This document shows positions 81 through 54,012 of a DNA stretch of 64,000 nt, piece by piece (the first letter of the stretch is position 1; each line of letters begins with the position of its first letter). Origin of the DNA: Begonia masoniana (lineage: Eukaryota; Streptophyta; Magnoliopsida; Cucurbitales; Begoniaceae). Under the pieces are notes generated by a model, which saw nothing but the letters and a program-made list of their open reading frames with translations, had not been told where the DNA came from and searched no databases. The stretch covers positions 28,753,171 to 28,817,170 of the forward strand of contig CM039512.1 in the NCBI GenBank assembly GCA_022432975.1, read 5' to 3'. The position numbers and the translations under genes are program-made.

Positions 81-646
81 GTAAGCAAGCTTTTGGAGTA
101 GTTGAAATCGTGCATCTCCAGGAGAGCCAGGTAAGTAAAGTTTGCTTGTGCCTTCGGGCCTACATCATAAAACATTAGGATTAAGCTTACTTGGATGAAT
201 CTGTATGTCATGCATCATGTTTTTTTTTTAAAGTATACGAAAATGAATTTGAATGCATGTTGGCATGGTGAGGATTGAACATATTGAAACAGCTATGTGA
301 ATCAGTTTTACTGTTAAGGGAAATAATCCGCCCCTTAATGAGACAGTGGATATTTATACTTTGGAAGAGTTGATCCAACTTCCAATTTCACAGAGGGATC
401 TGGACATGTGAATCAGATTTACTGTTAAGGGACTTAATCCGCCCCTTAATGAGTCAGTGGATGTATATACTTTGGGAGAATTGATCCAACTCCCAATTTC
501 ACAGGGGGATCTGAACAGAAACGAAGCATGAACAACTGAGTTGAGAAAGTAGAAACTGCATGGCTAGGAATTCATATTTCAGTGTTTCATTTCATTACTG
601 CTTTACTTACTTAGCATTAGGCTAATAGATGAGTTTTGTGATGTAG
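81..646 (+). other. Predicted LTR leader splice module (50-nt exon 81-130, intron 131-646)
   Basis: Seen: acceptor-like CCTTAG ends at 80, donor CCAG-GTAAGTA is at 130/131, the branch-like block TTACTTAGCATTAGG lies about 35 nt upstream of acceptor GATGTAG-GTGAAG at 646/647. The layout matches the modules in Tekay-1, Tekay-2 and both solo LTRs, but the exon is 50 nt rather than 45. Splicing itself is inferred, not shown. Confidence 0.45.
297..516 (+). repeat. Two-copy tandem duplication, period 111 bp
   Basis: Segments 297-407 and 408-516 align end to end with scattered substitutions. Each carries TTAATCCGCCCC-type and TTGATCCAACT(T/C)CCAATTTCAC-type blocks. It lies inside the predicted intron of LTR-X, where the Tekay-1 LTR has a different block with paired motifs. 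Confidence 0.85.
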
Positions 647-3482: not shown

Positions 3483-4512
3483 TGTAACACCCGACATTCT
3501 CAGTCAGGTGATTTTCTTAACGGAATTAACGGTCACCTCTTTATTTGACCTTTTATTTAATAATTATATGCCAAAGTTTATTGGATCTCTATTGTAGTGG
3601 CAGAATTGTAATTAAGGAGGAACTTATTTGATATAAGTAGAAAATGGAAACTCTTAAACCTCACAAAAAAAAACCCCACTATAGCCGACATTCTCTCTCG
3701 GTGATTCCCATCCTCCCAGAACTCTCTCTCTCGCAGCAGGTAGCCTTCTTCATCAATAACCGATTCTCCTTCGTTCTCGCCGATACTCAGCTTACCAGGT
3801 AAGACTTAATGAATGTAGTTACTGGTAGATACTTTGAGCTCTGTTTTCAGTTAGAACCCGAGGTTTCAGATTCTTTAATGGCAGAGTAATAATAGGATCA
3901 TTTCTATTATGCGTTTAGTAAAAGCATTTCCGAGTTTGTAATATCCGGCTTGTACAGAATTTTATATTATTATATATATTGACATTTTGGTAAATATGTC
4001 AAATCAGATCCATTTTACAAAAAGAATGCGTCATTTCGATCCTAACGATTAATAGGAATTTTAAGGAAATTATGAGATTTTTCGGAGTAATAACGCTTTA
4101 TTTCGAGTAATTACATTTCTTGAAATGTAAAAAGATGTTTTAGTAAAAATAGTAAACGGGATCCGTTTTGCGAACGGACAGTTTCAATAAATCCCAAATA
4201 ATGAGTTGGACTTATGGGTAAAATAAGGAAGTTTGGAGAAACTAAATCGCTAGTCAATTAACGAAACAAAGGACGAAACAAATATAAAAACTAAAGAAGG
4301 GCAAAAAGGTAATTTACCAAGTTACTTTTTAATTTAAAAATCAAATTTCCTTCATTCTGCAGAACACTTCTGCGATTTCAATTCTCTTTTTCCAGAGAGC
4401 TTTTTCTCTCGACTCTCCCTCTCTGCCCGTGGCGATTTCAACGATCCGACCTCCGATCTTTCTCCCGATTGTTTTGTTTTCTTCACGTTTTCTCCTCCGG
4501 TCAACGCTCTAG

Positions 4513-5541
4513 GTATGATTCTATAGTTTTAGAGCGTTAAATTTTGAGTTTCGTAGAGTTAAACCACTTAAGGTTCGTTTAGGGTTTCGATTAAAAACGA
4601 GATTTAGGATTCAAAATTTATAAATTTACTGTAATTAAGTATATATTGAACATATTGGACGTTATTGGACGAATCTAATGGATTTAGAATAAATGTTAGA
4701 TTTTGCGAAATTTCGAGATTTAGGGAAAAAATTGTGATTTGATATTTAGGGTCTTGAGCGTGATTTGCTCGATGAAATAGCTCAATAAATTGGATTAAAG
4801 CTTTAGGAAATTTCTTTAGTTAAGGTTTTGTTGAATTGGACGTTTAGTAGCTTAAACTGGTTTTAGTGGCAAATGTCGTGTTTTGCCTCAGGCGAACGAT
4901 TCTCGTGGTCAGAGCTCGAAGTTCAGCGCGCTCAAGGTAAGTTCTCGTGACTTACTCTGGCCGATTGGCCTACACCGTATTTCGATGTCGAGTCGAGGAT
5001 CTTAGTGGATTGTTTGTTTTAAATTGCTTTGGGTGGGTAGTTAGGTTTAAACGTCTTGTAGGTTATTTCGTTTACAGTCTTGATGGTACGCATGCTTGTT
5101 TGTTTACATTTATATTGAATTGTTCATGCATTACGTATTTTAACTTGGCATGAAAATGAATTTCTGCACAATATTTTCAGAAAATTAATGTGGCCCAAAA
5201 ATTGGGGGCTATTGATCTACCGTGCGGGCCGATTAAGGGTCTGGCCGATACCATATCTCATGTACTATAATTAATGAACGTAATCTGTTATCTGGTCACG
5301 TGAGGTGGGACTCAGACACGGTTGTACGTGTTGTAAGCGTGTACCCCCCTCCTCTAACCGCACGGGGTCGTCCGACCGCTGGATGGACCCCCTTCGGTTA
5401 GGGGGATGAGATCTCGGTGATATACTATCTGCGACGCTCTGTATGTTATGCATGATTTTCGAACTCCATATGCACTGCACGCATCTGCATTTACGTAGAA
5501 TTTACTGAGCCTTTAGCTCATAGTGTGTATGTATGGTGTAG
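4513..5541 (+). other. Predicted leader splice module, solo LTR (exon 4892-4936)
   Basis: Donor CTCTAG-GTATGAT at 4512/4513, acceptor TTGCCTCAG at 4891 (379-nt intron), a 45-nt segment, donor CTCAAG-GTAAGTT at 4936/4937, then 605 nt ending GGTGTAG-GTGACA at 5541. TTTACTGAGCCTTTAGCTCA lies about 40 nt before that acceptor. Same order and 45-nt spacing as Tekay-1, with little sequence similarity inside. Confidence 0.5.
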
Positions 5542-6032
5542 GTGACATTTTAGGTGACACCGAGCCAGGTGAGGACGACGTTCCTCCTCCTAACGTGTGA
5601 GGCAGTTGACGGAAGATGGATTGCGGTGGTGTGTTGCGCAGTCGATGCTTAACCGACCCGTGGGGATGTATGTATAGATTTTGAGGGTTTTTGGACTGAT
5701 ATTTGTATAGAAATTTTAGGATTCTTGGTTCTGGTAGTTGATAGGTTTACGTTTTGAGTTGTTTATAAAACATTTTGAAATGTACTTTGTAAACATATGG
5801 TATAAGGGGATGCTCAGTTTTTAAACAGAACCATGCGGTTCATTTTCTTAAATTTGATTCGGTTTAAAAAGTGAGTTGTGTGCGTTTTGCGATTCGCATG
5901 TAGGGAAGGAGAGAGTTGTTTTATAGACAGTTTTCATGAAAATGTATAGAAGAAATATGGACGAAAATGTTGAAATTGGCTCTCTGGAATCAGATTTCAG
6001 AGAGGCGGAAATGTTGGGTTAGCTCTCTCGAA

Positions 6033-6534
<502 letters not shown>

Positions 6535-7913
6535 CCCTTGACCAATTTAATAAATGTTTTAATTGTTTTATTAATTGTTTTAAATAGATTTAAGTTTATA
6601 AATGGTTTTGTTTTAAGTGGTTTAAAAGGTAGACTTCAGTTCCGCTTAAATTCAATTAAGTATAAAAAAAAAATATATGTATGGGAAAATGGGTAAAGTT
6701 TTAGGGATGTTACAGAGTTGATTATGAACATTTAGATAGCTGTATGCGATTAGTTACTAGGCTGAATCTGGTTATTTAGATTGTAGAAATTTAATCCACG
6801 CACACAAGATGCTCGGCAGAAGAATATAGAAATACAAGTAGGTTAAGCATTAGGATGATTTTTGGTTAGCACTATTAGGATTTTATTTTAACTTGGTAAT
6901 GTGAAATGATTTAGGTGAAGAAGATTTGAAAGGAGTATTCCATTTGCAAAGGACACCAGGTAAGTGAATGTATTAAGACTTCCGGCCACTAGGGCCCTAC
7001 ATCTTAAGAGTACTAAATTAGTTATGTGCTTGATGTTTGTTTTAAGTTAGTAAGATGGTTGTACTTGGATGATTTACGGATGTTTGAGAACTATATAATG
7101 TGATGTTCTGTTGAGCCTATGAAATCAACTGTCTAGAATGATAATTTCCATAGCTTGATGATTAAAAGCATTCATGTCATGCATCATGATTTACTTCTCA
7201 AGCATATGAAAATGATTTATGAGCATGTTTTTCTCCATGAGCAAGATATGAGAATGAATATGAAACTTATGCAACCAAATTAAGTGAGGGTTGGGGGCGG
7301 TTTGGCGTATGTCACTGTCCAAAGAGAAGGACCATGAATACGGCCCGAAAGGGACTATGTACACTTGCACTGTCATCCCCCCTTTACGGCACAAATCCTC
7401 CCTTAATCCATATGATGAAAGTGATGAACAAGAACACGAATAAGAACAAGAAAAGAGCATGAAACAAACATGATCATGATTTTCTTGAAACTATGCATTC
7501 ACGTATACATGTTAGTATTGCATTCCTTACTAAGCATTAGGCTTATAGTTTAAACCTTATGATGTAGGTGACGAGATTTCAGGTGAGGATTCCAAAGCTA
7601 ATGAAGATGTCTAAGTCTGGTTGCTGGAAGGTGATCAGGGTGTAATTCTGTGGCTGGATGGCGATTGAGACCCCTGGTTAATACTCTATGATTTTGTTAT
7701 GATTATGAATATGGTAGTTTAAGCAGGATGAGTTTACTTTTATAACATTGAGTTTTGAAACTGTCTGGTTGACTACTGAGTCTGGGAATGATTAAAAGGA
7801 TTATTAAATGATCTGTTGTTAAGTCTTCCGCTATATGTATTCTGGATGAGTCTCTGATTTTCATTTATAAGAGTGATTAGTCAATGAAGTTAGAAGTCTG
7901 TGCATATCTATGT

Positions 7914-8410
7914 CCACCGATAGCTGTACTCTATCGGATGATGTTAGGAATTTGCATCCACCGATAGATGTTCTCTATCGGAAGATGTATGAGTTTGCAG
8001 TGTGCAGTGACCGATAGATGTTCTCTATCGAAGATGTCTTAAAAAGAGCACGTGGATTGCACATGTCCTATCGATAGATGCTGTGTATCTCAATTACCGG
8101 ATGATGTAAGTGTTGTGTTGTCGTCTAGTGACCGGTAGATGTTTTACAATCGGTAGAAGTAGCATAATATTTGTCGTTTGCTACCGGTCGATGTAAGTGA
8201 TACTCTTTGTCGCCTAGCAATCGGCAGAAGTGAATAAGTCTTCTGCCGGATGATGTCTGCAAATCACGTGAGACGCTCGTGACCATCGGTCGACGTGAGT
8301 TTATGACTCTATCGGCAGATGCAGTTTAAGAGATGTTTAGAAACAGATGTGTCACGTGGCGGGCACGTGACCATCGGTCGATGTGAGTCTATGACTCTAT
8401 CGGTAGATAC
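7914..8410 (+). repeat. Degenerate hairpin array (CCGATAG...CTATCGG), Tekay-1 5' LTR
   Basis: Irregular units of about 20-60 bp built around (A)CCGATAGATG, TATCGGAAGATG, ACCGGTAGATG, CATCGGTCGATGTGAG and CGGCAGATG. Several form 21-nt hairpins with 7-bp arms CCGATAG and CTATCGG around a 7-nt loop. The 3' LTR has the matching array, with small differences that include a duplicated GTGCAGT. Confidence 0.85.
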
Positions 8411-8545
8411 AGTTTAGGAGATGTTTTTGAAGAAAAAAATAATATATAACACTAATAATGAACAAGGTGTATGAAGTAAGAACCGATTGATTAAGAGGTT
8501 AAGTTATGAATTACGTGGCGACTCCAACTGGGGTTGTTACAATTA

Positions 8546-8557
8546 TGGTATCAAAGC
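8546..8557 (+). other. Tekay-1 primer-binding site
   Basis: TGGTATCAAAGC, four bases after the LTR end, complements the 3' end of plant initiator tRNA-Met with one mismatch (TGGTATCAGAGC expected). It marks the minus-strand DNA start site and the LTR/internal border. Confidence 0.85.
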
Positions 8558-8701
8558 AAAACCAGGTTCTAAAATCGATTCTGCAGACTGCCTCCCAGCA
8601 CAGATTGCCACCTGAGTACACTCCAGCAACTGTAAGTGTTTATGATTTTAGTAATGTCATTAAGTTAAGATATGTTATGATTATTGTTTAGGAATCTCAA
8701 A

Positions 8702-12670: not shown

Positions 12671-13078
12671 GTGTTCTCCGTCGGAGATGAAGTATTTTTA
12701 AAGATTTCACCATTTAAGGGAGTACTTAGATTTGGCAAGAAGGGAAAGCTTAATCCGCGATTCGTTAGACCATTCCCTGTCTTGGAAAGGATCGGCAGCA
12801 CAGCTTATAGACTGCAATTACCTCTTTCACTGGAGAAAGTTCACAATCTTTTTCATGTGTCTATGTTGAGAAAATGCATACGGGATCCTACACAAGTTGT
12901 TAAGCCAGTGGATGTCAAAATTGAGCCAACATTAATGTATGAAGAGAAGCCAGTGCAAATTTTGGAATCTGCAGTAAAGACTCTGAGGAATAAAGAAATT
13001 CCTTTGGTTAAGGTCTTATGGACGACATGGGAACGAAAGCAAGATATGTTGGACAAATATCCGGAGCTCTTCGTTTGA
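12671..13078 (+). pseudogene. Tekay-1 integrase C-terminus with shortened chromodomain
   Basis: Contains GDEVFLKISPFKGVLRFGKK and HNLFHVSMLRKC, the conserved integrase C-terminal blocks of chromoviruses. It ends with a chromodomain-like stretch (PVQILESAVKTLRNKEIPLVKVLW, read here in two parts: PVQILESAVKTLRNKEI and PLVKVLW), closing with YPELF. Between VKVLW and the end the usual aromatic segment around EEATWE is shortened to TTWERKQ, so an essential part of the chromodomain fold appears deleted. Chromodomains steer integration to modified histones. Confidence 0.85.
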
Positions 13079-13399
13079 TCAATTTTCGGGGACGACATTC
13101 TCAGTCAGGTGATTTTCTTAACGAAATTAACGGTCACCTCTTTATTTGACCTTTTATTTAATAATTATATGCCAAAGTTTATTAGATCTCTATTGTAGTG
13201 GCAGAATTGTAATTAAGGAGGAACTTATTTGGTATAAGTAGAAAATGGAAACTCTTAAACCTCACAAAAAAAAACCCCACTGTAGCCGACATTCTCTCTC
13301 AGCGATTCCCATCCTCCCAGAACTCTCTCTCTCGCAGCAGGTAGCCTTCTTCATCAATAACCGATTCTCCTTCGTTCTCGTCGATACTCAGCTTACCAG

Positions 13400-14385
13400 G
13401 TAAGACTTAATGAATGTAGTTACTGGTAGATACTTTGAGCTCTGTTTTCAGTTAGAACCCGAGATTTCAGATTCTTTAATGGCAGAGTAATAATAGGATC
13501 ATTTCTATTATGCGTTTAGTAAAGGCATTTCTGAGTTGATTATGAACATTTAGATAGCTGTATGCGATTAGTTACTAGGCTGAATCTGGTTATTTAGATT
13601 GTAGAAATTTAATCCACGCACACAAGGTGCTCGGCAGAAGAATATAGAAATACAAGTAGGTTAAGCATTATGATGATTTTTGGTTAGCACTATTAGGATT
13701 TTATTTTAACTTGGTAATGTGAAATGATTTAGGTGAAGAAGATTTGAAAGGAGTATTCCATTTGCAAAGGACACCAGGTAAGTGAATGTATCAAGACTTC
13801 TGGCCACTAGGGCCCTACATCTTAAGAGTACTAAATTAGTTATGTGCTTGATGTTTGTTTTAAGTTAGTAAGATGGTTGTACTTGGATGATTTACGGATG
13901 TTTGAGAACTATATAATGTGATGTTCTGTTGAGCCTATGAAATCAACTGTCTAGAATGATAATTTCCATAGCTTGATGATTAAGAGCATTCATGTCATGC
14001 ATCATGATTTACTTCTCAAGCATATGAAAACGATTTATGAGCATGTTTTTCTCCATGAGTAAGATATGAGAATGAATATGAAACTTATGCAACCAGATTA
14101 AGTGACGGTTGGGGGCAGTTTGGCGTATGTCACTGTCCAAAGAGAAGGACCATGAATACGGCCCGAAAGGGACTATGTACACTTGCACTGTCATCCCCCC
14201 TTTACGGCACAAATCCTCCCTTAATCCATATGATGAAAGTGATGAACAAGAACACGAATAAGAACAAGAAAAGAGCATGAAACAATCATGATCGTGATTT
14301 TCTTGCAACTATGCATTCACGTATACATGTTAGTATTGCATTTCTTACTAAGCATTAGGCTTATAGTTTAAACCTTATGATGTAG
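13400..14385 (+). other. Predicted leader splice module, Tekay-1 3' LTR (exon 13733-13777)
   Basis: Same junctions as the 5' LTR, without the insertion: donor CCAG-GTAAGAC, intron of 333 nt, acceptor ATTTAG, 45-nt exon, donor CCAG-GTAAGTG, intron of 608 nt, acceptor TGTAG-GTGACG. All splice-site bases are retained. Confidence 0.5.
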
Positions 14386-14731
14386 GTGACGAGATTTCAG
14401 GTGAGGATTCCAAAGCTAATGAAGATGTCTAAGTCTGGTTGCTGGAAGGTGATCAGGGTGTAATTCTGTGGCTGGATGGCGATTGAGACCCCTGGTTAAT
14501 GCTCTATGATTTTGTTATGATTATGAATATGGTAGTTTAAGCAGGATGAGTTTACTTTTATAACATTGAGTTTTGAAACTGTCTGGTTGACTACTGGGTC
14601 TGGGAATGATTAAAAGGGTTATTAAATGATCTGTTGTTAAGTCTTCCGCTACATGTATTCTGGATGAGTCTCTGATTTTCATTTATAAGAGTGATTAGTC
14701 AATGAAGTTAGAAGTCTGTGCATATCTATGT

Positions 14732-15230: not shown

Positions 15231-15351
15231 ATGTTTTTGAAGAAAAAAAATATATATAACACTAATAATGAACAAGGTGCATGAAGTAAGAACCGATTGA
15301 TTAAGAGGTTAAGTTATGAATTACGTGGCGACTCCAACTGGAGTTGTTACA

Positions 15352-15504
15352 GATATAATTAATGGGTTACGATCAAAAATAGAAAGCATGGAGCAAATCC
15401 AGGAAGCTATGTTGAATAAGTGGAGGAAAAAAACTGCAATGTATTTACAGTTTTGGCTACTTACAATTGTATTGTTTGTAGCTTATGTTTGTATGACTAT
15501 GTAA
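15352..15504 (+). pseudogene. GRF zinc-finger gene, left copy, C-terminal part
   Basis: Starting in the TSD, the frame reads DIINGLRSKIESMEQIQEAM, then LNKWRKKTAMYLQFW and LLTIVLFVAYVCMTM before TAA. This is a short coiled segment followed by one C-terminal membrane span, the usual tail of small plant GRF-finger proteins. The right copy at 18337-18489 is nearly identical. The upstream exons sit at 3289-3482 across Tekay-1, so this copy was split by that insertion. Confidence 0.7.
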
Positions 15505-16445
15505 TTTAGTGTATGTTTGTTGGTAACTTATGTTTAACAATCAAGGAAATGACGATGAAGACTTGCAATAGATGATGAGATTCATGTTTTCGTGTTTTTA
15601 TTTCATTTTTATTTGTTAATGGTAGATATAATGACTGAAGATTTCCATTTTTATTTCATTTGAATTGTTGCTTAACATGTTATACTAGATATGGATCCTA
15701 CACTGCTGAGAATGTGATAATGGAAGACGACTCCAGAAAAAGACTTGATAAAAACTTACAAAAAGAGGCTTTTCCATAAAAATTAGGTTCATCGTATCAA
15801 TGCCTGGCGCTGGAGATCAGTAAAAGTCTTATTGTTGTAGATATTACCCTCTTTATCTTCATACTTTTCTTCAAGATCTAGCCGCCATTTGTTCACTCCT
15901 TGATACTCCTATATTTTCATACACAAGTCTTTTGCTTCCTGTGTAATTATAAAATGTAGATAATATAGATCACAAGCTTAAAAATTATCCTGCATAAAAT
16001 GAATCCACGTAATGCATTAAGAATTCATCACACAATTCTCTCATAACAGTGCAAAGTAACCAAAGTAGTGCAAGTAACCAAAGACACAAAATTGAAAATG
16101 CATTTAGACCTGCATAAGATTCATTAAGAGCCTATCCTACATAAGATCATCCACGTAAATATTATCTAACAATGTATTAAAAATTCATCACCACGTAAAC
16201 ATTAAGAATTCATTAAGTAACCAAAGTGCAAGTAACCAAAGCAGTGCAAATACCAAAGACACAAAATTGAAAATGCATTTAGACCCCTCGGCCTCTTCCT
16301 CTTTCTCTTTCTCGGCCTCTTCCCCTACCGCTTCCAGCTCCACGTGTAGTTGGTGTAGATGTGTTCAAATTAACTCCTTCGCACCTCCTAACATAATTCG
16401 AACACATCTACACCAACTACACGTGGAGCTGGAAGTGGTAGGAAT

Positions 16446-16945
16446 GCACTGCTTTGGTTACTTGCACTGCTTTGGTTACTTGCACTGCTTTGGTTACTTG
16501 CACTGCTTTGGTTACTTGCACTGCTTTGGTTACTTGCACTGCTTTGGTTACTTGCACTGCTTTGGTTACTTGCACTGCTTTGGTTACTTGCACTGCTTTG
16601 GTTACTTGCACTGCTTTGGTTACTTGCACTGCTTTGGTTACTTGCACTGCTTTGGTTACTTGCACTGCTTTGGTTACTTGCACTGCTTTGGTTACTTGCA
16701 CTGCTTTGGTTACTTGCACTGCTTTGGTTACTTGCACTGCTTTGGTTACTTGCACTGCTTTGGTTACTTGCACTGCTTTGGTTACTTGCACTGCTTTGGT
16801 TACTTGCACTGCTTTGGTTACTTGCACTGCTTTGGTTACTTGCACTGCTTTGGTTACTTGCACTGCTTTGGTTACTTGCACTGCTTTGGTTACTTGCACT
16901 GCTTTGGTTACTTGCACTGCTTTGGTTACTTGCACTGCTTTGGTC
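16446..16945 (+). repeat. 18-bp tandem array, 28 units
   Basis: Unit GCACTGCTTTGGTTACTT, 27 exact repeats plus a partial one ending GGTCACTC. The same unit occurs three to four times in tandem at 17560-17640 in the right arm and, inverted, in the left arm (AGTAACCAAAGCAGTGC). The array is thus an expansion of a motif native to the element. Because 18 is divisible by three, several frames remain open; none resembles a protein. Confidence 0.95.
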
Positions 16946-17373
16946 ACTCCTTGCTACTCCTATATTTTCATACACAAGTCTTTTGCTTCCTGTGTAATTA
17001 TAAAATGTAGATAATATAGATCACAAGCTTAAAAATTATCCTGCATAAAATGAATCCACGTAATGCATTAAGAATTCATCACACAATTCTCTCATAACAG
17101 TGCAAAGTAACCAAAGTAGTGCAAGTAACCAAGACACAAATTGAAAATGCATTTAGACTGCATAAGATTCATTAAGAGCCATATCTACTAATAAGATCAT
17201 CCACGTAATATTATCTAACAATGTATTAAAAATTCATCACCACGTAAACATTAAGAATTCATTAAGTAACCAAAGTGCAAGTAACCAAAGCAGTGCAAAT
17301 ACCAAAGACACAAAATTGAAAATGCATTTAGACCCCTCGGCCTCTTCCTCTTTCTCTTTCTCGGCCTCTTCCC

Positions 17374-17500
17374 CTACCGCTTCCAGCTCCACGTGTAGTT
17401 GGTGTAGATGTGTTCAAATTAACTCCTTCGCACCTCCTAACATAATTCGAACACATCTACACCAACTACACGTGGAGCTGGAAGTGGTAGGGGAAGAGGC
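17374..17500. repeat. Palindrome centre of the GRF element
   Basis: Arms CTTCCAGCTCCACGTGTAGT (17380 region) and its exact inverse (17458 region) flank a short spacer; an equal copy lies at 16333-16440. The flanks continue the inversion (GCCTCTTCC versus GGAAGAGGC). The sequence could fold into a long hairpin. Confidence 0.8.
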
Positions 17501-17865
17501 CGAGGAAGAGAAAGAGGGAAGAGGTGGAGTGGTCTAAATGCATTTTCAATTTTGTGTCTTTGGTATTTGCACTGCTTTGGTTACTTGCACTGCTTTGGTT
17601 ACTTGCACTGCTTTGGTTACTTGCACTTTGGTTACTTAATGAATTCTTAATGCATTGTTAGATAATGTTTACGTGGATGATCTTATGTAGGATGATCTTA
17701 TGTAGGATTGGCTTTTAATGAATCTTATGCAGGTCTAAATGAATTTTCAATTTTGACTTTGGTTACTTGCACTGCTTTGCTTACTTGCACTGTTAGTGGA
17801 GAATTGTGTGATGAATTCTTAATGCATTACGTGGATGCATTTTATGCAGGATAATTTTTGAGCCT

Positions 17866-18048
17866 GTGGATCTATATTATCTACATTTTAAAATTACACA
17901 AGAAGCAAAAGACTTGTGGAAGAAAATACAGGAGCGGCAAGGAGTGAACAAATGGCGACCAGATCTTGAAGAAGAGTATGAAGATAAAAAGGGTAACATC
18001 TACAACAAGAAGACTTTTACTGATCTCCAGCGCCAGGGATTGTTATGA
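17866..18048 (+). CDS. 60-codon frame of unknown function in the GRF element
   Basis: Open from ATG at 17866 to a stop after QRQGLL. It is rich in charged residues (KDLWKKIQERQG, PDLEEEYEDKKG, YNKKTFTDLQRQGLL) and looks like the C-terminus of a larger soluble protein. I do not recognise the family. The mirror copy in the left arm (minus strand, about 15780-15990) has the same reading with a stop and several substitutions, which supports a coding past for this strand. Just upstream on the same strand, near 17500, lies an open stretch GRGGVV that ends in a stop. Confidence 0.35.
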   Translation: MDLYYLHFKITQEAKDLWKKIQERQGVNKWRPDLEEEYEDKKGNIYNKKTFTDLQRQGLL

Positions 18049-18336
18049 TGAACCTAATTTTTATGGAAAAGCCTCTTTTTGTAAGTTTTTATCAATTCTT
18101 TTTCTGGAGTCATCTTCCATTATCACATTCTCAGCGGTGCAGGATCCATATCTAGTATAACACATGTTAAGCAATAATTCAAATGAAATAAAAATGAAAA
18201 TCTCCGGTCATTATATCTACCATCAACAAATAAAAATGAAATAAAAACACCAAAACATGAATCCCATCATCTACTGCAAGTCTTCATCGTCATTTCCTTG
18301 ATTATTAAACATAATTACCAACAAACATACACTAAA

Positions 18337-18847
18337 TTACATAGTCATATAAACATAAGCTACAAACAATACAATTGTAAGTAGCCACAACTGTAAATAC
18401 ATTACAGTTTTTTTCCTCCACTTATTCAACATAGCTTCCTGGATTTGCTCCATGCTTTCTATTTTTGATCGTAACCCATTAATTATATCTTTTTCCCTCA
18501 ATCACATGGCTGAATCGTACTACGAAAAAAAATTGCATCCTCCTGATTCCACCTGTAACAAATCGAACGTTATATTGTATAATTACAGATTAACATTATA
18601 GATTAACATTACATTACCGCATAGTATTGACAGCCAAAAAATCTTCTACCAGGATTATTCGGTGTCCATGATGTACGGAGACAAGCTCTTGCATTGCAAA
18701 AACAATTAACATTTGACGACACCTCTGAATCATCTACAAAATTACACAATGAATACTGTATAATTACAAACATCACTTATTTAAAGAATAATGAGAACCT
18801 ATACCGATAGCACCTTCATTCCTTTGCGACGTATGCGAAGAAGCCAT
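18337..18847 (-). CDS. GRF-type zinc-finger membrane protein, right copy (three exons, last junction doubtful)
   Basis: Minus strand. Exon 1 runs 18847-18805 from ATG (MASSHTSQRNEGAI), donor CG-GTATAG. Exon 2 runs 18733-18618 after GTAG and carries the GRF finger: CFCNARACLRTSW, TPNNPGRRFFGC and QYYA, with the invariant TSW, NPGRRF and Cys. Donor GCG-GTAATG follows. Exon 3 begins near 18552 after TTACAG, but the phase needed to read WNQEDAIFFRSTIQPCD does not match that junction, and a TGA follows before the tail DIINGLRSK with its C-terminal membrane span (LQLWLLTIVLFVAYVYM, stop at 18337). So it is either broken or spliced otherwise. GRF fingers bind single-stranded nucleic acid in other proteins; the role here is unknown. 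Confidence 0.55.
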
Positions 18848-28725: not shown

Positions 28726-29130
28726 GTGTAACACCTGGATTTTTGGGTTTTCGGATTTTTCGTCATGCAGGGGCATTTTTGTAAATATAATAAATTAATC
28801 TCGTTTTGCAAACAGGAAGTTTTATTACAACCCTAAGAATAAATTTTAATATTTGGAGGAATAAGAAAATTTGAAGAAACCAAATCGATAGACTAAATAA
28901 CGAAATAGTAGAATATTAAGCTAAAGGGCAAAATGGTAATTGTCAAGTTAAATTTTATAAAAATTATAAAATCCCTCCCCCTCCCACGTTGTGTTCATTC
29001 TGCAGAGAAGGGGGGAGAGCTTCTCCCTTAGGCGATTTTCATCGCCTCTCGACGGTTCTTCACGGCTCAACGGCGATTCCTCCTCCGATAATCAATTTCT
29101 TCTCGTTTTCTTCCTCAATCGACATTCTAG

Positions 29131-30102
29131 GTAAGGTTCTTGCGTTATGGACCGTTAGGTTTTGATTTTACGGATTATAACGGTTAGGGTTTCGATTAGG
29201 ATTTTCTCGAAATTGTCGGGTTATGTTATAAACGGTTAGGGTTACTGTATTTACGACTCTAATGGACGTATTTGTGATTATTGGATATAGTTAGTTGATT
29301 TTAATGGTGGTTGTTTGAGTTTTGGTAGTTGGAAAAGTTGAGAAACTCCATTAATGGAGGCTTAGAGATTTGTCAGCGCGAATTGCTCGATAAAATGCCC
29401 GAATGAGTTAAATTATAATTTTAGGAAATTTCCTTTAGCTAGGAGTTTCGTTAGTTTTGGAACGGTTTATTCGGATTTAGCCTTATTGACCAAATTGTAA
29501 AATGTCTTAGGTAACGAAGCTCAAAACGAGGTGCTCGGCTCGCTAGGGACGTCGAGTAAGTCTTCGTGACTTGTTTGGCCGATTTGGCCTACACCACAAG
29601 AAAAGTTATTGATTGAGGATTTGGTGATTTAGGTTGTTTTAGTGCAACTAGGATGGGTAATTAGATTTAGTTTAAGTTATTGAATGTTTAATGTCCATTG
29701 TTCGTTCTATGTTTTTAATTATGTTTAATGCATTGTACATGTCCTTGCATCACGTTTTCTAAAATAGCATGAAAAATGAACTTCCTCATATGTTTTCATG
29801 AAAAGGAAATGACTAACGAAAAGAAATGAATGCACGTAATCCCGGTCATGTCGGGGTGGGGTTTAGACATGGCTATCCTACAGGTGAAACATGTTCTTTC
29901 CCCTGGGTAGATGGAGAAGGCTATCCAACCGCCGGATGTGCCGTTTTCATCTACTGAGAGCGAACCCCCGGTGACATCCCGTTATATAACGTAAAGAATG
30001 AAAAAGAAATGCATGATTTTATGAACTACATATGCATAGCATGCATTCTCATTTACGTCGATTTACTGAGCCTTTAGCTCATAGAATGTTTCTGTGGTTT
30101 AG
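29131..30102 (+). other. Predicted leader splice module, Tekay-2 5' LTR (exon 29511-29555)
   Basis: Donor TTCTAG-GTAAGG, 380-nt intron, acceptor TGTCTTAG at 29510, 45-nt exon, donor GTCGA-GTAAGT at 29556, 547-nt intron with TTTACTGAGCCTTTAGCTCA, acceptor GGTTTAG-GTGAAC at 30102. Here the last exon base is A; the 3' LTR copy has the consensus AG. Confidence 0.5.
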
Positions 30103-30605
30103 GTGAACTCGAGAAAGATGAGGATAACGTTCCTCTACCCGATGAATGCACAGATTGAAGAAGAATGTCTGAGGGAGTGTGCTAAGCAGTCGAAGCAATT
30201 TTGACCCGTGGGAACCAAAGTATAGGTATTTTGAATATGTTAGGTAGAATTGATATGGAAATTGTATAGAAAGCTATTTAGGAATGATTAGTGACTAGCT
30301 TGATGATAATGATATGGAAGACGGTTTTTGGATGATTATGTAGTTGGGTTACCATTTTTGGATGATTTGTTAGCTTATGATGTGTATGTTTAGTTATTGA
30401 TGAAATGGATTAGATTTTGATGATTTGAGTCGGATTTTGATGATTTTAGGTTGAGGCTTTCAATTAGTGGATGTGTAAATTTTAGGTACAAATGTTATGG
30501 ATGATATTGAAGTGTTATTATGTGAGAAATTGGAGAAGATGGCAAAGGAAGGAAAAAGGAGGGATTTGGTGCGCTGGGCGCACAGCTGGCGCGTAGAGGC
30601 ACGTT

Positions 30606-31162: not shown

Positions 31163-31309
31163 TCCCGGGTTTTAAAATCGGTTCTGTAGACTACTCGACT
31201 GCACAAGCCACTACGCGGACATGCTTCCTCAACTGTAAGTACGTTTATGAGCTTTCTTTTATTTCGATTTCTTAGGATTATTTGTCTTTAACTTTATAGG
31301 GTTAACAAA

Positions 31310-34246: not shown

Positions 34247-35743
34247 AATGCGTCGCCAATTGTGCTCCAAAACACGTCTTACTATCTTGGGAGGTTTCCT
34301 TACATATGTTTCATTTCCATTAACTTCCCCAAGCGATGTGGGATTGTGAAGACCCCCTCTTTATGACCCGGGATTCGCTTATACTCGAGTCCGGGATCCA
34401 CCTCGCAACCCAAGGTTTGCCCCGCAGTCGTACTCATACGTACACATCCGGGTCATCACAATAATGTAGCTTATAATGAAATGTGATGTTTATAGGATCT
34501 TATTTATAAAGGAACAAGGATCTTAAGAGAGTAGCGACTTTAGCTCCCAGTTGGATTCATTGAGATTGGGAGGTATTTTGATGATATAGTTGTGAAGTAT
34601 AGCAATGAGAACTTAGTTGAGAAACCCACACTGAAATAGTCGCCGACAATCGGCGAATGCCCAAGAAAGTATGTGACTAAGGATATTATCGATAAAATAG
34701 TTTATAAGGGACCATTGTTAAAGAAAACGTAAAAATTGAGTTGTCATACATTCCGACTACGGATAGAGCCGATGAACTTATGCAGAGGTTTGGGTTACAG
34801 CCCAGGAGTTGGTAGAAATCCTTAGATGATATCCAATTCAGCCGATGTTAGGAAGCTTAGATATAACTATGATCTAAAGGAATAGCTAAGGAAAAACTTC
34901 GATGAAGCCTGAGCATAAGGCCAAGCTAGATGGGCAAGGAAAGTTTAGCTTATGGATGATTAAGTGGGATGATACGAACCAAGATAGGTCCAAGCCCAAT
35001 ATCAAGGTATATAATCCATCTAACAAAGGAAGCTCTAATGTGAATCAAGGTGCGACCGAGCTCAAGCCCAAAGACAAACATCAATGTCAAAATATTGTAG
35101 TTCTTCATGGAGAAACATGTTTTACGGAGATCAACATCTTCAATTCAGCATCCCCTTACATTATGACATTCTTCAAGGTGAGGCATAAATGGAGGATCAA
35201 GCACACGTTCAAAGATTATTGGATTACTTCTCAAAGGTTTCTATAGTGGGCTGGATCGCGTAATTTTACAAAGTTTCTTAATTATAGTTTTAGAAAACTT
35301 CTTAATTATAGTTTTAGAAAGCTTTCATAATCATAGATTTAGAAAATTTTCCTAAGTATTGTTTTAGAAAGTTTCCTAATTATTGTTTTAGTAATATTTC
35401 CTAATTAAATTAGGATAGTTTGTAGCATATTTAAAGGCATAAACCTTGCAACATTATTATTAGAATATACATGATTTTGAGTTACTCTTTGTGAGAATTT
35501 TCTCTTTTGTTCTTTGTGAAGAACTAGATCTTCTTCAAGTCAAAACTTGAAAGATCAACTTGATAGCTTTGGTTCTAACCACAAGTTCGGTTACGGGTCA
35601 AGCTCCTTGTTTGATAACTTTGGTTCCGTCGGCAAGGTTCGATTGGGGTCAAGTTCCTTATACTTGATTTCACAGGCATTCCTGAGTTTCTAATTCCGCG
35701 TTATTGAAGGGTCTCGGGTTTCATATACCTGTGGTTCTCATCA

Positions 35744-36597
35744 TTTGGTATCAGAGCTTTGGTTCCTAGATTCAAGTTTCTATCTTTATTGTTTTTTTTT
35801 TCTTCTTCTTCTAGAGTTTCTTTATTTGAAAATTCAAAAAAAAAAAAAAAATTGAAATTTGAAAAAAAAAATCCGAAAATTCGAAAAAAAAATTTCGGAA
35901 ATTCGAAAAAAAAAAAGTCATTGAATCAACGATTCTCTTTATTTGTCAAGTTTTCTTCTTTAAAAAAAAAAAATCTCAATATTTCGAGTATCAATATCTC
36001 GAGTATCAATTTCTTCTTCGTCATTATATGCATCATTATTTGCTTTTTGGTGTGATTATTCAATTCTTTTCTTTGACTGTCTCAATTTCCTTTCTTCAAA
36101 AGTTTCCTTTTGTGAAAAGTTTATTTTCTTGAAAAGTTTCCTTTCGTAAAACGTTTCCTTTCTTGAAAAGTTTCCTTTTGTGAAAAGTTTCCTTTCTTGA
36201 AAAGTTTCATTTCGTAAAACGTTTTCTTTCTTGAAAAGTTTCCTTTCGTAAAAGTTTCCTTTCTTGAAAAGTTTACTCTCTTGAAGTCCTACATCCTATT
36301 CTAAATTGTTTGATTCTAACCGATTTTGGAAATTAGAATTTTGAGTTAAAAAGTTTGATCTTACTTGTTTTTGCTTGTTGAATTTTTTCTCTTGATTAGG
36401 TTTTTACATAAAGAGCTTAAAGAGAAAATTGAGTGGTAAAAGGCAAGAGGGTGAGACTATCATATAAAAGCCATTATTTGAGGGAAACACGAGTGGAGAG
36501 ACATATAATCGAGTGTAAACACGTGAGGGAGTGAGTGAGTTCTATTTACATACTTATTTTTGTTCACTAATAATTTTTATTTTTCTTTCTTGAAATT
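35744..36597 (+). other. Leader of the gag-only element
   Basis: A primer site, then A-runs around 35820-35970 and about ten tandem variants of a 20-bp unit, GTTTCCTTTCTTGAAAA (36090-36275), expanded by slippage. No gene. Confidence 0.7.
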
Positions 36598-37215: not shown

Positions 37216-37719
37216 GTGTTGTTGAAGCATGAACCAAAAGATTATGAAGTTGAGGTACAGAAGGTGAAGGACATTGATGAAGAAAGTGAGAACAATATTG
37301 TCATGTTGGCAAGGGAGCAAGCACTTGTTACTTATTCCAAAGATTTTATTTTTTCTAACAATCTTAATCCTTTTTCTAGTGTGAATTTCTTTGTGTATGA
37401 TCCAGGAGATTCGATGACGAATCTCTTCGAAGGGAAAGGGAATGATACGAACCAAGATAGGTCCAAGCCCAATATCAAGGTATATAATCCATCTAACAAA
37501 GGAAGCTCTAATGTGAATCAAGGTGCGACCAAGCTCAAGCCCAAAGACAAACATCAATGTCAAAATATTGTAGTTCTTCATGGAGAAACATGTTTTACGG
37601 AGATCAACATCTTCAATTCAGCATCCCCTTACATTATGACATTCTTCAAGGTGAGGCATAAATGGAGGATCAAGCACACGTTCAAAGATTATTGGATTAC
37701 TTCTCAAAGGTTTCTATAG
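37216..37719 (+). CDS. Second frame of the gag-only element, ending inside the 3' LTR
   Basis: Open for 167 codons from 37216. The first 75 residues lie in the internal region (KVKDIDEESENNIVMLAREQ, FFVYDPGDSMTNLFEGKG). The frame then crosses the polypurine tract and LTR border at 37443 and continues about 90 codons into the LTR (SKPNIKVYNPSNKGSS, HKWRIKHTFKDYWITSQRFL). The same LTR-encoded portion is open in the 5' LTR (34902-35246 frame), with one residue change seen (E for K), which suggests the frame was maintained. Family not recognised. An in-frame TAA at about 37207 separates it from the first frame. Confidence 0.4.
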   Translation: MLLKHEPKDYEVEVQKVKDIDEESENNIVMLAREQALVTYSKDFIFSNNLNPFSSVNFFVYDPGDSMTNLFEGKGNDTNQDRSKPNIKVYNPSNKGSSNVNQGATKLKPKDKHQCQNIVVLHGETCFTEINIFNSASPYIMTFFKVRHKWRIKHTFKDYWITSQRFL

Positions 37720-39008
37720 TGGGCTGGATCGCATAATTTTACAAAGTTTCTTAATTATAGTTTTAGAAAGTTTCTTAATTATAGTTTTAGAAAGCTTTCA
37801 TAATCATAGATTTAGAAAGTTTTCCTAAGTATTGTTTTAGAAAGTTTCCTAATTATTGTTTTAGTAATATTTCCTAATTAAATTAGGATAGTTTGTAGCC
37901 TATTTAAAGGCATAAACCTTGCAACATTATTATTAGAATATACATGATTTTGAGTTACTCTTTGTGAGAATTTTCTCTTTTGTTCTTTGTGAAGAACTAG
38001 ATCTTCTTCAAGTCAAAACTTGAAAGATCAACTTGATAGCTTTGGTTCTAATCACAAGTTCGGTTACGGGTCAAGCTCCTTGTTTGATAACTTTGGTTCC
38101 GTCGGCAAGGTTCGATTGGGGTCAAGTTCCTTATACTTGATTTCACAGGCGTTCCTGAGTTTCTAATTCCGCGTTGTTGAAGGGTCTCGGGTTTCATATA
38201 CCCGTGGTTCTTATCATGGAAGCCAATGTATGTGTGAATTGTTTATGTGCATAGATATGCAGTTGGGTAATTCGGATTGGAGACTTAGAAATTTGATAGT
38301 GCGAAATGCTTAATCTGGGGCGTAGTTAGTCAAATCGAAGATTGCGAGTGCGGTTAGGGGCTAACGTTGCACCATTAGGTCTTAGGAATTTTGGTTTGGA
38401 ACCATAGAGATTGACCCTAAGTATAGATAGAATCAAAATTCTTAAAGAGAAATTCAAATTTTTTGTGAGATTGAGGGAAGAGACGCGAAAAGAACAGAGG
38501 GATTGTAAGTTGAAGTATAAGGCCACAAGACATGAGACAATAATATCAAGGACTATAAGCTAAGTCAAATTTTGAGGATAAAATTTTAATTAAGGTGGGT
38601 GGAATGTAATATCCAGATTTTTAGGTTTTTGGATTTTTCGTCATACAGGGGTATTTTTGTAAATATAGTAAATTAAGCCCGTTTTGCAAACAATAAGTTT
38701 TATTAGAATCCTAGGAATAAATTAGAATATTTAGAGGAATAAGAAAATTTGGAGAAACCAAATTGATAGACTAAATAACGAAATAGTAGAATATTATGCT
38801 AAAAGGAAAATTGGTAATTGTCAAGTTAAATTTTATAAAAATTATAAAATCCCTCCCCCTCCCACGTTGTGTTCATTCTGCAGAGAAGGGGGGAGAGCTT
38901 CTCCCTTAGGCGATTTTCATCGCCTCTCGATGGTTCTTCACGGCTCAACGGCGATTCCTCCTCCGATCATCAATTTCTTCTCGTTTTCTTCCTCAATCGA
39001 CATTCTAG

Positions 39009-39974
39009 GTAAGGTTCTTGCGTTATGGATCGTTAGTTTTCGTTTTTACGGATTATAAAGGTTAGGGTTTCGATTAGGGTTTTGTCAAAATTGTCGGGTT
39101 ATGTTAGAAACAATTATGGTTACCGTATTTACGACTCTAATGAACATATTTGTGATTATTGGATATAGTTAGTTGATTTAACAGTGGTTGTTTAAGTTTT
39201 GGTGGTTGGAAAAGTTGAGAAACTCCATTAATGGAGGATTAGAAATTTGTGAGTGCGAATTACTCGATAAAATGCCCGAATGAGTTAAATTCGAATTTTA
39301 GAAAATTTCCTTTAGCTAGGAGTTTCGTTAGTTTTGGAACAGTTTATTCGGATTTAGCCTTATTGACCAAATTGTGAAATGTCTTAGGTAACGAAGCTCA
39401 AAATGAGGTGATCGGCTTGCTAGGGACGTCAGGTAAGTCTACGTGACTTGTTTGGCCGATTTGGCCTACACCACAAGAAAAGTAATTGATTGAGGATTTG
39501 ATGATTTAGATTGCTTTAGTGTAACTAGGATGGGTAGTTAGGTTTAGTTTAAGTTATTGAATGTTTAATGTCCATTGTTCATTTTATGTTTTTAATTACG
39601 TTTAACGCATCGTACATGTCCATGCATCATGTTTTCTATATGAAAAATGAACTTCTTCATACGTTTTCATGAAAAGGAAATGACTAACGAAAAGAAATGA
39701 ATGCACGTAATCCCGGTCATGTCGAGGTGAGGTTTAGACATGGTTGTCCTACAGATGAAGCATGTTCTTTCCCCCCGGGTAGATGGAGAGGGCTATCCAA
39801 TCGCCGGATGTGCCGTTTTCATCTACTAAGAGTGAACCCCCGGTGACATCCCATTATGTAGCGTAAAGAATGAGAAAGGAATGCATGATTTTATGAACTG
39901 CATATGCATAGCATGCATTCTCATTTACGTCGATTTACTGAGCCTTTAGCTTATAGAATGTTTCTGTGGTGTAG
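39009..39974 (+). other. Predicted leader splice module, Tekay-2 3' LTR (exon 39388-39432)
   Basis: Donor TTCTAG-GTAAGG, 379-nt intron, acceptor TGTCTTAG, 45-nt exon, donor GTCAG-GTAAGT, 542-nt intron, acceptor GGTGTAG-GTGATC. Despite indels elsewhere between the two LTRs the exon length is the same. Confidence 0.5.
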
Positions 39975-40465
39975 GTGATCTCGAGGAAGGTGAGGGTAAC
40001 GTTCCTCTACCCGATGAATGCACAGATTGAAGAAGAATGCCCATGGGAGTGCGCTGAGTAGTCATGGCAATTTTGACCCGTGGGAACCAAAGTATAGGCA
40101 TTTTGGATATGTTAGGTAGAATTGATATGGAAATTGTATAGAAAGCTATTTAGGAATGATTAGTGACTAGCTTGATGATAATGATGGGGAAGATGGTTTT
40201 TGGATGATTATGTAGTTGGGTTACCATTTTTGGATGATTTGTTAGCTTCCGTTGCGTATGTTTAGTTATTGATGAAATGGATTAGATTTTGAGGATTTGA
40301 GTCGAATTTTGATGATTTTAGGTTGAGGCTTTTAATTAATAGATGTGTAAATTTTAGGTACAAATGTTATGGATGATATTGAAGTGTTATTAGGTGAGAA
40401 ATTAGAGAAAATGGCAAAGGAAGGAAAAAGGAGGGATTTGGTGCGCTTGGCGCGCTGCCCTACTC

Positions 40466-47076: not shown

Positions 47077-48335
47077 TGACACGATGGCCCTTAGAAAAGG
47101 GGTCGTGTAAACCAACAAAACTTAGACAAAGTGCTTGGGAGTGTGAAGAGTGAAAAACCGTGGAGAGAAGGTTATGGAGATGAAGAGAAAATGCAATAAT
47201 TTAAAAGGTGAAGTGAGTGAATGAGTGTTGGCCGAAAATATCATGAAATGGAAAGCATGAAATATGAAAGAAAATGGATTAAAGGAACCAAGTGAAGGTG
47301 TGTTCAAATCGAGGGGAAAGAGTGAAATGGTGGAGAGAAAATGCAAGAAAATAAAGGTGAGGTGTGTGTTAGTGAAATGGCCGAAAAGATGGAATACCCT
47401 TGGCAGACCCGGGAGCTATCTTACATGTGCTCTCGGGTGCACGTTTTCCAGGAGAAAAAGTACCACAGTAGGCTTAGGCTTTCTTCCTCAAACCTTAAAC
47501 TCTAAAGAGAGCAAAGGTGAGGGAATGAATAAGTGTTCACCAAGCAACCCAAAGCTAGGGGAACAATGGAGGGCCTTTCCACTCGATAGAAATTGAGGAA
47601 CATCCGAAGGGCTTTTAACACTTAGGTTAGGAAAAGGAAAATTCTCATAAAAAGGCAAAAGTTCCTTTACACACATCAATGCTAGGCTTAAATAGAGAAA
47701 CCTAGGGTGGATGATTAGGGTTTGGCAGTGGAAAAAAGGATTGGAGCCGTTGATGAAGACCAAGATGAAGGGACAAGATTGCAATCCATGTGCTTCATCC
47801 AAGGGTTGAGGTGCTTTCCTTATTTTTATTGATCAAGGGTGCTAAATGGCCATGTCTTTCATCCTTGTGGCCACTACCAATTGTACCTACACAATTCACA
47901 CCTTAAAGTTGGGCTCTCATTTGGGCTAAGTCTTGATTTGAGTCCAGTTTGTTGAAGTAGCTTTCTCCTTTGTTGACTAAGTCTTCAACCCATCATCCAC
48001 CATCATACATCTAGTCCTAACCACACAATCTAATGCATGATGCAATTATAAATAGTTCATACAAAAAGGCTAGTGTTTGCCAAATAAGTTCAAAAGTAAC
48101 AATTACAGTATTTCATGGGCCGGGAAGACAAATTCCTATTGGGCCACTTAAAGTCTCTATTTGAATGCTCTTGTTGAGGCTATACAGGGGCTTGTCCATA
48201 TCTTCCAAAGTTGGTTCCCATGTGAAGTCAATAATGGGATCAATACCTGCAAAAAGAACAAAATCATTAGAAAATTGGCTAAGTAAATTGTGGGTCCGAG
48301 TTTGAGATCTTGTGATAGGCCTCCTTGGCATGTCA
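47077..48335 (-). mobile_element. CRM-like 3' LTR (left), encoding the C-terminus of pol
   Basis: On the minus strand it starts TGACATGCCAAGG at 48335, directly after the purine tract AGAGGGGA, and ends TGTCA at 47077. Its first 220 bp carry the last 74 codons of the integrase frame. The right LTR keeps the same frame open. Confidence 0.9.
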
Positions 48336-52779: not shown

Positions 52780-54012
52780 GTAAGTTCGATTTTTGGCTCT
52801 GTTTTTGTTCGGTTTGTGGCCGAGGGTGACGAGCTCGATTGAGCTCCGATCACCGGCCGTTTTCGGTTGGTCTTGGCTCGGGATTGCCGGATATTAGGCC
52901 GGCTTTAGTCGCCTGGCCGTGAGGGGCCCAATTTGGGCGAAATTCAGTGAAGCCCGATTTAGGGCATTTCGGGTTTTGCTTGATGCCTCGGGATTTTTGG
53001 TTAGATATTGTTAATTGAGTGTATATGTGGTCGATTGGTGAAGGAATTGATGAGAATTGATGGAAAACCGAGAATGGTAAAATTTCCCGGATTAGGGCAG
53101 TTCGGGTTTTGCCTGAATTGACCTAGCTACGGTCGTTTATTTTGAAATTTCTTTTGGCAGGTTAAAATAGGTTATTAGAGGAGTGCGTGGCCGCTGGAAT
53201 CGTTCGATTCCGATATCCGACGCAAAAGTTACGCGCATTCGAAGTTTCGGGTCGATTTTACCAAACCCAAATTAGTGGCCCGTTTAGTTAGGTTTTAGTT
53301 GGATTAGGCTAGAAATAGTAGTTTGAGATGTTTTCACGAAAATGAGAGTTTAGTTATGCCGAGCGAGTTCTAATGCAATGTTTTGATATTTAGGATCGAT
53401 TTTAATACCTTTATTTATGAAATGCCTTAGGTGGACACGGCTTTTGGACGGTGCTCGGCTTGCTACGGACGCCAGGTAAGTGGGTGCTCGGCTTCTCAAC
53501 GATAGGTTTTTGTATTTTGATGATGATTTCCTGATTGTGGGGTTTACTGAGTTGGGTAGCTTAAGATGCTAGTTATTAGTTATTTGTGAAGTTCGTTAAG
53601 AATAATGTATGTCCATGTACATTGTAAATTGTTTGATGATATGTCTTGATGATATGTTATACGTAGAGTCCTCATGCATCATGTTTTCTCAAATGTCATA
53701 TGAAATGTTCATGTATGATGTATGTAAAGGAAAAGTAATGATAAGTGTGGGTGGGAATGTATGGCCATAACAACAAAACTATTGTCACTATCCACGCGAT
53801 GGATCATGAATACGGCCGAAAGGACTATGTACACGCACTTGGCCTACACTCTCTGACAAGATGCCCACCTTAATCCATGTTAACGAAAATGAAAAAGAAA
53901 AAGAATAAGTAAATGAACATGTTTTTATGAAAAGTCATGCATTCATGCATACGTCATTATAGTGTATCCTCTTACTAAGCATTAGGCTTACTGTTTATGT
54001 TGTATGATGTAG
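52780..54012 (+). other. Predicted leader splice module, second solo LTR (exon 53431-53475)
   Basis: Donor AATG-GTAAGTT at 52780, 651-nt intron, acceptor ATGCCTTAG at 53430, 45-nt exon, donor CGCCAG-GTAAGTG, 537-nt intron with CTTACTAAGCATTAGGCTTA, acceptor GATGTAG-GTGACAGG at 54012. The exon shares GGTGCTCGGCTTGCTA-type text with Tekay-2. Confidence 0.5.

Follow-up and report, generated by a model that had tools for sequence, protein, structure and literature searches.

Do the long terminal repeats (LTRs) of plant Ty3/gypsy retrotransposons carry introns of their own, and what would removing them achieve? The question is raised by a stretch of 64,000 nucleotides from Begonia masoniana (hereafter the window; C11:28753171-28817170 of the 795-Mb genome), which holds nested Ty3/gypsy material. 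A preliminary description of it proposed that the LTRs of several families enclose a 45-nt exon between two introns, and read a constant length with changing sequence as selection for splicing of an LTR-derived leader. That proposal stands in part: the splice sites lie where it placed them, while the fixed length and the non-alignment of the exons did not hold up. Our analyses point to a larger arrangement, probably a multi-intron 5′ leader in the LTR of Tekay-like elements, the splicing of which would divide their RNA into two pools.

The elements in the window are Tekay-1 (T1), Tekay-2 (T2), two solo LTRs (3937 and 52300, each with five-base target repeats read by eye) and LTR-X at the window start. 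The 'Tekay' label is carried over from the preliminary description; here they are called Tekay-like. T1 is a Ty3/gypsy element, with an LTR pair (self-match) around protease, reverse transcriptase (RT), RNase H and integrase in Ty3/gypsy order (Pfam RVP_2, RVT_1, RNase H and integrase), and its reading frames are broken. At its integrase end Pfam gave only SH3_Tf2-1, in the last piece and at 0.001, and the window copy is without a stretch there that relatives have; compared with relatives, two parts are missing at 12981-13092, one close to the integrase end, the other the polypurine tract together with the opening bases of the 3′ LTR. T2 has an LTR pair by self-match and six frames of at least 100 aa, none of them RT-like by eye. 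The window also holds a run of about 500 T within solo LTR 3937 (6036-6534, beginning near 6028), a tandem array with a 60-bp unit in or beside LTR-X (1057-2976), a large inverted repeat directly after the T1 3′ LTR (15351-18490; its arms reach 98% complementarity and flank an 18-bp tandem array, 16319-17074), a 779-bp direct repeat of 98% identity inside T2 (34966-35744 and 37439-38217, with low-complexity charged frames between the copies) and a repeat pair of 93% identity around solo LTR 52300 (47077-48335 and 56067-57324). The predicted features are as follows.

81..130 (+): LTR-X exon 2, 50 nt; exon 3, 18 nt, at 647-664
3664..3798 (+): T1 5′ LTR exon 1, positioned by its offset from the 3′ copy (13265-13399, donor 13400), start placed from the TATA box; donor 1 at 3799
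4513..4891 (+): solo LTR 3937 intron 1, 379 nt
4892..4936 (+): solo LTR 3937 exon 2, 45 nt
4937..5541 (+): solo LTR 3937 intron 2, 605 nt
5542..5568 (+): solo LTR 3937 exon 3, 27 nt, or 15 nt from 5554 via a second acceptor
6915..6959 (+): T1 5′ LTR exon 2, 45 nt; the solo LTR (3937-6714) interrupts the upstream intron 1
6960..7567 (+): T1 5′ LTR intron 2, 608 nt
7527..7545 (+): palindrome TTACTAAGC-5nt-GCTTA upstream of T1 5′ LTR acceptor 2
7568..7582 (+): T1 5′ LTR exon 3, 15 nt; donor 3 (GTGAG) at 7583; the frame continues to a stop
7583..8586 (+): T1 intron 3, predicted, from donor 3 to the acceptor before 8587; remaining LTR and primer-binding site
8546..8563 (+): putative T1 primer-binding site region
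8587..8631 (+): T1 exon 4, 45 nt
8632..8691 (+): T1 intron 4, 60 nt, U-rich; gag AUG at 8702
13265..13399 (+): T1 3′ LTR exon 1, start placed likewise; TATAAG at 13233
13400..13732 (+): T1 3′ LTR intron 1, 333 nt
13733..13777 (+): T1 3′ LTR exon 2, 45 nt
13778..14385 (+): T1 3′ LTR intron 2, 608 nt
14386..14400 (+): T1 3′ LTR exon 3, 15 nt
28990..29130 (+): T2 5′ LTR exon 1, start placed likewise; TATAAA at 28956/28965
29131..29510 (+): T2 5′ LTR intron 1, 380 nt
29511..29555 (+): T2 5′ LTR exon 2, 45 nt, end CGA
29556..30102 (+): T2 5′ LTR intron 2, 547 nt
30103..30117 (+): T2 5′ LTR exon 3, 15 nt; donor 3 lost in this copy (GATGAG)
31190..31234 (+): T2 exon 4, 45 nt, one AUG
31235..31299 (+): T2 intron 4, 65 nt; gag AUG at 31310
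39388..39432 (+): T2 3′ LTR exon 2, 45 nt; exon 3 at 39975-39989
52780..53430 (+): solo LTR 52300 intron 1, 651 nt
53431..53475 (+): solo LTR 52300 exon 2, 45 nt
53476..54012 (+): solo LTR 52300 intron 2, 537 nt; exon 3 at 54013-54027

The arrangement AG-45 nt-GTAAGT is present at all six places for which it had been reported (6915-6959, 13733-13777, 4892-4936, 29511-29555, 39388-39432 and 53431-53475), with upstream donors at 13400, 4513, 29131 and 52780 (intron 1 of 333-651 nt) and downstream TAG/GTGA acceptors at 7568, 14386, 5542, 30103, 39975 and 54013 (intron 2 of 537-608 nt). LTR-X has its 50-nt exon 2 at 81-130 and the next acceptor before 647. The T2 5′ copy has the 45 nt and the GTAAGT donor, while its exon end, CGA/GTAAGT, is counted among the unconfirmed points. 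An AG lies 45 nt before GTAAGT 10 times among the 29 GTAAGT sites in the window, both LTRs of a pair being counted, that is twice, against a mean of 2.1 (s.d. 1.6) over lags 20-119 and 7 for the next highest lag. Six of these ten cases are exon 2, two (8632 and 31235) belong to a further exon past the primer-binding site, one (131) is LTR-X, where 50 nt fits too, and one (60471) is unrelated.

Beyond the window the exon is not constant at 45 nt. A pattern that permitted 32-60 nt had 9,004 matches; in the first 100 of them to be listed, exon 2 measured 45 nt in 16 cases, 46 in 50, 47 in 18, 48 in 13 and 56-58 in 3, and 30 loci not chosen on exon 2 gave 45 nt in 10, another or ambiguous length (44-57) in 10 and no clean exon 2 in 10. 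Exon 2 sequences, said in the preliminary description mostly not to align, do align between families. With homologous exons whose length shifts one base at a time, selection can no longer be argued from a fixed length kept while the sequence changes. The window's constant 45 nt is a sample effect. Freely varying length had been named as grounds for giving up the idea; the length does vary, yet 97 of the 100 listed matches lie within 45-48 nt, a narrow range that reflects homology or constraint.

Introns 3 and 4, which were absent from the preliminary description, extend the predicted leader as far as gag and its AUG. When the window LTRs are aligned, TAG/GTGA is followed 15 nt later by MAG/GTGAG, with the exception of the T2 5′ copy (GATGAG) and solo LTR 3937 (a 12-nt longer exon with a second acceptor). 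Past the primer-binding site, the interiors of both T1 and T2 read TTCTGYAG, 45 nt, GTAAGT and a U-rich stretch of 60 or 65 nt, the closing TAG of which lies 10 nt upstream of the gag AUG; the same arrangement occurs in two other families in the fetched loci (46 and 44 nt, counted by hand), and exon 4 measures 44-47 nt in 13 chosen examples. The predicted order is thus promoter, exon 1, intron 1, exon 2, intron 2 with the palindrome and TAG/GTGA acceptor at its end, a short exon 3, the GTGAG donor, intron 3 of about 1 kb spanning the remaining LTR and the primer-binding site, exon 4 of about 45 nt, a U-rich intron 4 of 60-65 nt and the gag AUG. We counted the parts on both strands of the genome, with each pattern read backwards as control, and found 18,557 matches for the palindrome with acceptor 2 (control 0), 9,004 for exon 2 with both splice sites (control 18), 32,687 for exon 3 with donor 3 (control 2,321), 7,247 for the primer-binding site with exon 4 (control 0) and 3,086 for intron 4 up to the gag AUG (control 1). 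As the matches are repeats related by descent, these counts measure abundance and are not independent trials. Judged by its motifs, the module is genome-wide in Tekay-like Ty3/gypsy elements and larger than the exon first described.

For the comparison across families, 30 loci were taken from the earliest matches listed for the palindrome and formed 12 groups under an 80%-identity rule. The alignment comprised 21 LTRs out of 38 (the 30 loci and 8 others), covering the groups, with copies having a recognisable exon 2 preferred; their median pairwise identity was 47%. The GT of donors 1-3 and the AG of acceptors 1 and 2 are at or above the 94th percentile of the 1,357 columns, among the most conserved in these diverged LTRs, contrary to what would be seen were the GT/AG bases no more conserved than their neighbours. 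Flanking donor bases are partly lower (0.83 and 0.60 for the third and fourth of donor 1, 0.87 for the third of donor 3). The search key contained acceptor 2 and the palindrome, which makes their conservation in these loci conditional on it; the other sites lay outside the key. AG/GTRAG stands exactly 15 nt after acceptor 2 in 27 of the 30 loci (background 47 matches in 89,543 nt). Exon 2 is recognisable in 20 of them, with a donor lacking a clean acceptor in 5 and neither site in 5, and the missing clean exons count against the leader model. Conservation within the T1 family (29 copies) was uninformative as a test, the mean major-base fraction being 0.95 over the whole LTR. Two stretches of intron 2 are also kept across families, in the T1 3′ LTR a TCATGCATCATG-like block at 13993-14004 and GGCC...CCTAC at 13802-13818, about 25 nt past donor 2.

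The distribution of AUGs follows the predicted exons. In 18 of the 21 sequences, with expectations from dinucleotide shuffles, exons 2 and 3 have a single AUG each, within 830 nt (6.7 expected) and 293 nt (5.3 expected) respectively, while the introns exceed expectation (intron 1, 135 against 111.7; intron 2, 575 against 340.6). Exon 1, with 9 AUGs against 11.0 expected in stretches that are partly misaligned or truncated in this set (L062, L054 and solo LTR 52300), is AUG-low by composition only, which counts against the leader model. Unspliced, 90 AUGs precede gag in T1 (the LTR part counted on the 3′ copy) and 84 in T2; the predicted T1 exons 1-4 contain none in 240 nt. T2 speaks against the model in two ways, through the loss of donor 3 from its 5′ copy and through the AUG in its exon 4; on a hand reading that AUG would be in frame with gag after splicing. 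G+C is lower in the introns than in most exons of four window LTRs. TATA motifs lie upstream of exon 1 in T1, T2 and solo LTR 3937; two further points against the model are that a TATA motif search in solo LTR 52300 gave no match and that donor 4 scores low (6.6 on the donor matrix used). Selection for splicing of an LTR-derived leader, the interpretation first offered, thus keeps in its favour the conserved splice bases, the AUG-poor exons 2 and 3 beside AUG-rich introns, motif counts far above the reversed controls and the two further introns reaching the gag AUG, and loses the argument from constant length.

These observations from one genome suggest the following model. Transcription would start in the LTR, just upstream of exon 1 (a start placed by TATA motifs), from the LTR promoter. 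Splicing would remove intron 1, intron 2, the intron made up of the LTR remainder and primer-binding site, and the short intron adjoining gag, so as to join an exon 1 of about 135 nt, an exon 2 of about 45 nt, the short exon 3 and an exon 4 of about 45 nt to gag. The 84-90 AUGs that would block scanning would thereby be cleared, leaving a nearly AUG-free leader. Because the primer-binding site would be removed, fully spliced RNA could serve translation only, while unspliced RNA, with LTR and primer-binding site, would be the template for new copies; transcripts would in this way be split into a translation pool and a replication pool. A genome search for the exon 2/exon 3 junction (one exon 2 type, at most one mismatch) gave 136 matches (control 25), and no spliced copy was recognised among the 100 listed, of which the commonest repeat was read at one place and three scattered matches were read, all unrelated, and the rest judged from 24 letters. 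One repeat (L065:601-624, at least 27 exact places) mimics this junction by chance, and the one place read is without exon 2 context. The exon 4/exon 5 junction (one family type, exact) had 0 matches, as had its control. For the few junctions searched, this fits with spliced RNA not being copied.

The palindrome ahead of acceptor 2 has the form TTACT-N-AGC-5 nt-GCT-N-A. Its variable pair covaries in 38 sequences (A-T 18, G-C 18, A-C 1, G-T 1), the remaining stem bases being fixed by the search key. The pair is T-A in LTR-X, and likewise in the 100 places listed out of another 4,362, apparently members of a single large family. When four window sequences were folded, the hairpin was the best structure in one, with no z-score below -0.7; as folding does not favour the hairpin, a palindrome acting at the DNA level is equally possible. 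It holds a sequence resembling the branch-point consensus TACTRA, at branch-point distance, and as a guess it might mask or present the branch point. The pattern had 2 matches in IMG/VR, which we attribute to chance since they read as recA-like genes of DNA phages.

Exon 3 has a further property, which a leader microexon does not account for. Among 58 variants, picked as distinct from 100 listed matches of exon 3 with donor 3, the length is divisible by three in 56 (49 of 51 once the 27-nt class is set aside, since part of that class coincides in position with 15-nt entries), and the frame G/GTGAN has a stop in 1, against 16.6 (s.d. 3.3) in shuffles and 31 and 58 in the other two frames. Read on through GGTGAG, this frame stops after 15 codons in 16 of 23 sequences, after 18 in 4, and after 14, 11 and 2 in one each, with TGA, TAA and TAG all in use. 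Beyond GGTGAG, identity by codon position is 0.61, 0.55 and 0.41 in 12 sequences, and the synonymous share of codon differences is 0.21, the other frames giving 0.12 and 0.13. Upstream, the frame extends into the end of exon 2, where 25 of 27 variants share an Arg and the synonymous fraction is 0.18 against 0.08 and 0.07; it is continuous only with intron 2 removed. Exon 3 and its continuation thus look coding up to the stop; a search for a start codon found none. Donor-3 bases at third codon positions are nearly fixed (in 16, 15 and 14 of 16 groups), where most others vary (codon 13 has T in 13 of 15); given a coding signature with such fixed positions, the site seems to be donor and codons at once.

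This signature could be taken to mean that introns 1 and 2 are real and the chain stops there. Exon 3 would then close the coding sequence of a small protein, or of a protein tail, that the LTR encodes and that ends in a conserved acidic stretch and stop. GGTGAG would be Gly-Glu codons instead of a donor, and the upstream partner would be either exon 2, translated from a non-AUG codon, or gag/pol joined by splicing to the 3′ LTR. The lengths in threes, the rarity of stops, the common end point reached with three different stop codons, the shared Arg and the excess of synonymous differences all favour such an exon; yet 25 of 27 exon 2 variants are free of AUGs and 9 of 27 have a stop in the exon 3 frame, most exon 2 lengths are not multiples of three, the third positions at the donor bases are fixed, no homologous protein was found for the conceptual exon 1-3 peptide of one locus, and the AUGs before gag would partly remain. 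We regard this explanation as unlikely. Exon 2 as a full coding exon is ruled out by its lengths and stops, and reading from exon 3 into gag via exon 4 does not fit in T1 or T2, as judged by hand. Also on the unlikely side, though somewhat less so, is an exon with two purposes: in the 5′ LTR, exon 3 cut at donor 3 would be a leader microexon, and in the 3′ LTR, with donor 3 unused, a terminal coding exon adding a conserved acidic tail and stop, possibly to gag spliced past pol. A splice from gag to the 3′ LTR is one idea for how exon 3 might be translated; the gag of T1-family copies has one phase-1 donor candidate (score 6.9 on the donor matrix).

Least probable is that the motifs reflect only the shared ancestry of related LTRs, or DNA-level control elements, with no splicing. 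The homology of the exon 2s with their single-base length drift, the conservation of other intron 2 blocks such as TCATGCATCATG and the palindrome, and the want of a recognised spliced copy in the junction searches are what it would lead one to see; against it, conservation peaks at the splice bases in several separate places, the AUG shortage ends at the predicted exon borders and the frame from exon 2 to exon 3 runs on only without intron 2. Splicing as such is well supported on these sequence grounds, and the multi-intron leader dividing two RNA pools is the reading we consider probable.

Retroviral 5′ leaders have a donor near their start, downstream of the LTR, and their unspliced RNA is both genome and source of gag. 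The predicted module shares the donor close to the start and the unspliced RNA as genome, and differs in that its donors lie within the LTR and gag would need splicing. Among plant LTR retrotransposons, introns are generally lacking, with Ogre and EVADE as exceptions, according to a 2025 review (PMC12786077). How LTR retrotransposons apportion their transcripts to translation and to reverse transcription is described as a major question in the abstract of a paper on BARE1 (PMC3735527). We took an intron between the protease and RT frames as Ogre-type, and a donor after the gag domain giving a short gag mRNA as BARE/EVADE-type. BARE1 (Ty1/copia, barley) is similar in that splicing and alternative transcripts part translated from replicated RNA, only unspliced RNA being held to be copied; it has one intron, downstream of gag, which knocks out pol (PMC3735527), whereas the introns predicted for the present elements are placed within the LTR and upstream of gag. 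Ogre (pea and Medicago) is likewise a plant Ty3/gypsy element with a partly spliced spliceosomal intron (PMC6317226 and PMC12786077), and EVADE (Ty1/copia, Arabidopsis) makes a distinct gag mRNA by splicing, in its case by removal of the protease region within the coding part, LTR introns going unmentioned in the excerpt (PMC12786077). As these excerpts describe them, BARE1, Ogre and EVADE splice in or after the gag-protease part, unlike the module here, in the LTR and before gag. Maize CRM, also a plant Ty3/gypsy group, has some spliced and back-spliced reads (few per element, 125 for CRM3); its circular RNA derives from the protease region plus the intergenic stretch that follows, LTR-containing reads are set apart, and the excerpted text describes no LTR leader introns (PMC7010299). 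The main text of a CRM survey contains neither 'intron' nor 'splic' (PMC3059260). No description of introns inside plant Ty3/gypsy LTRs was found in the excerpts of open-licence PMC literature, a weak negative. As far as the searched literature goes, splicing to make distinct RNAs is known from BARE1, Ogre and EVADE, and the placing of introns in the LTR and leader is the new part.

If the model is true, splicing would be a basic trait of a large group of elements, given that the motifs of the leader module number in the thousands in this one genome, and both the annotation of LTRs and the mapping of RNA-seq reads would need to take it into account. Should exon 3 have two purposes, the same sequence would act near one end of the element as a splice hub of the leader, and near the other as the exon that ends a protein. 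Solo LTRs, finally, could then readily supply genes in their neighbourhood with promoters, with splice sites and perhaps with a coding exon.
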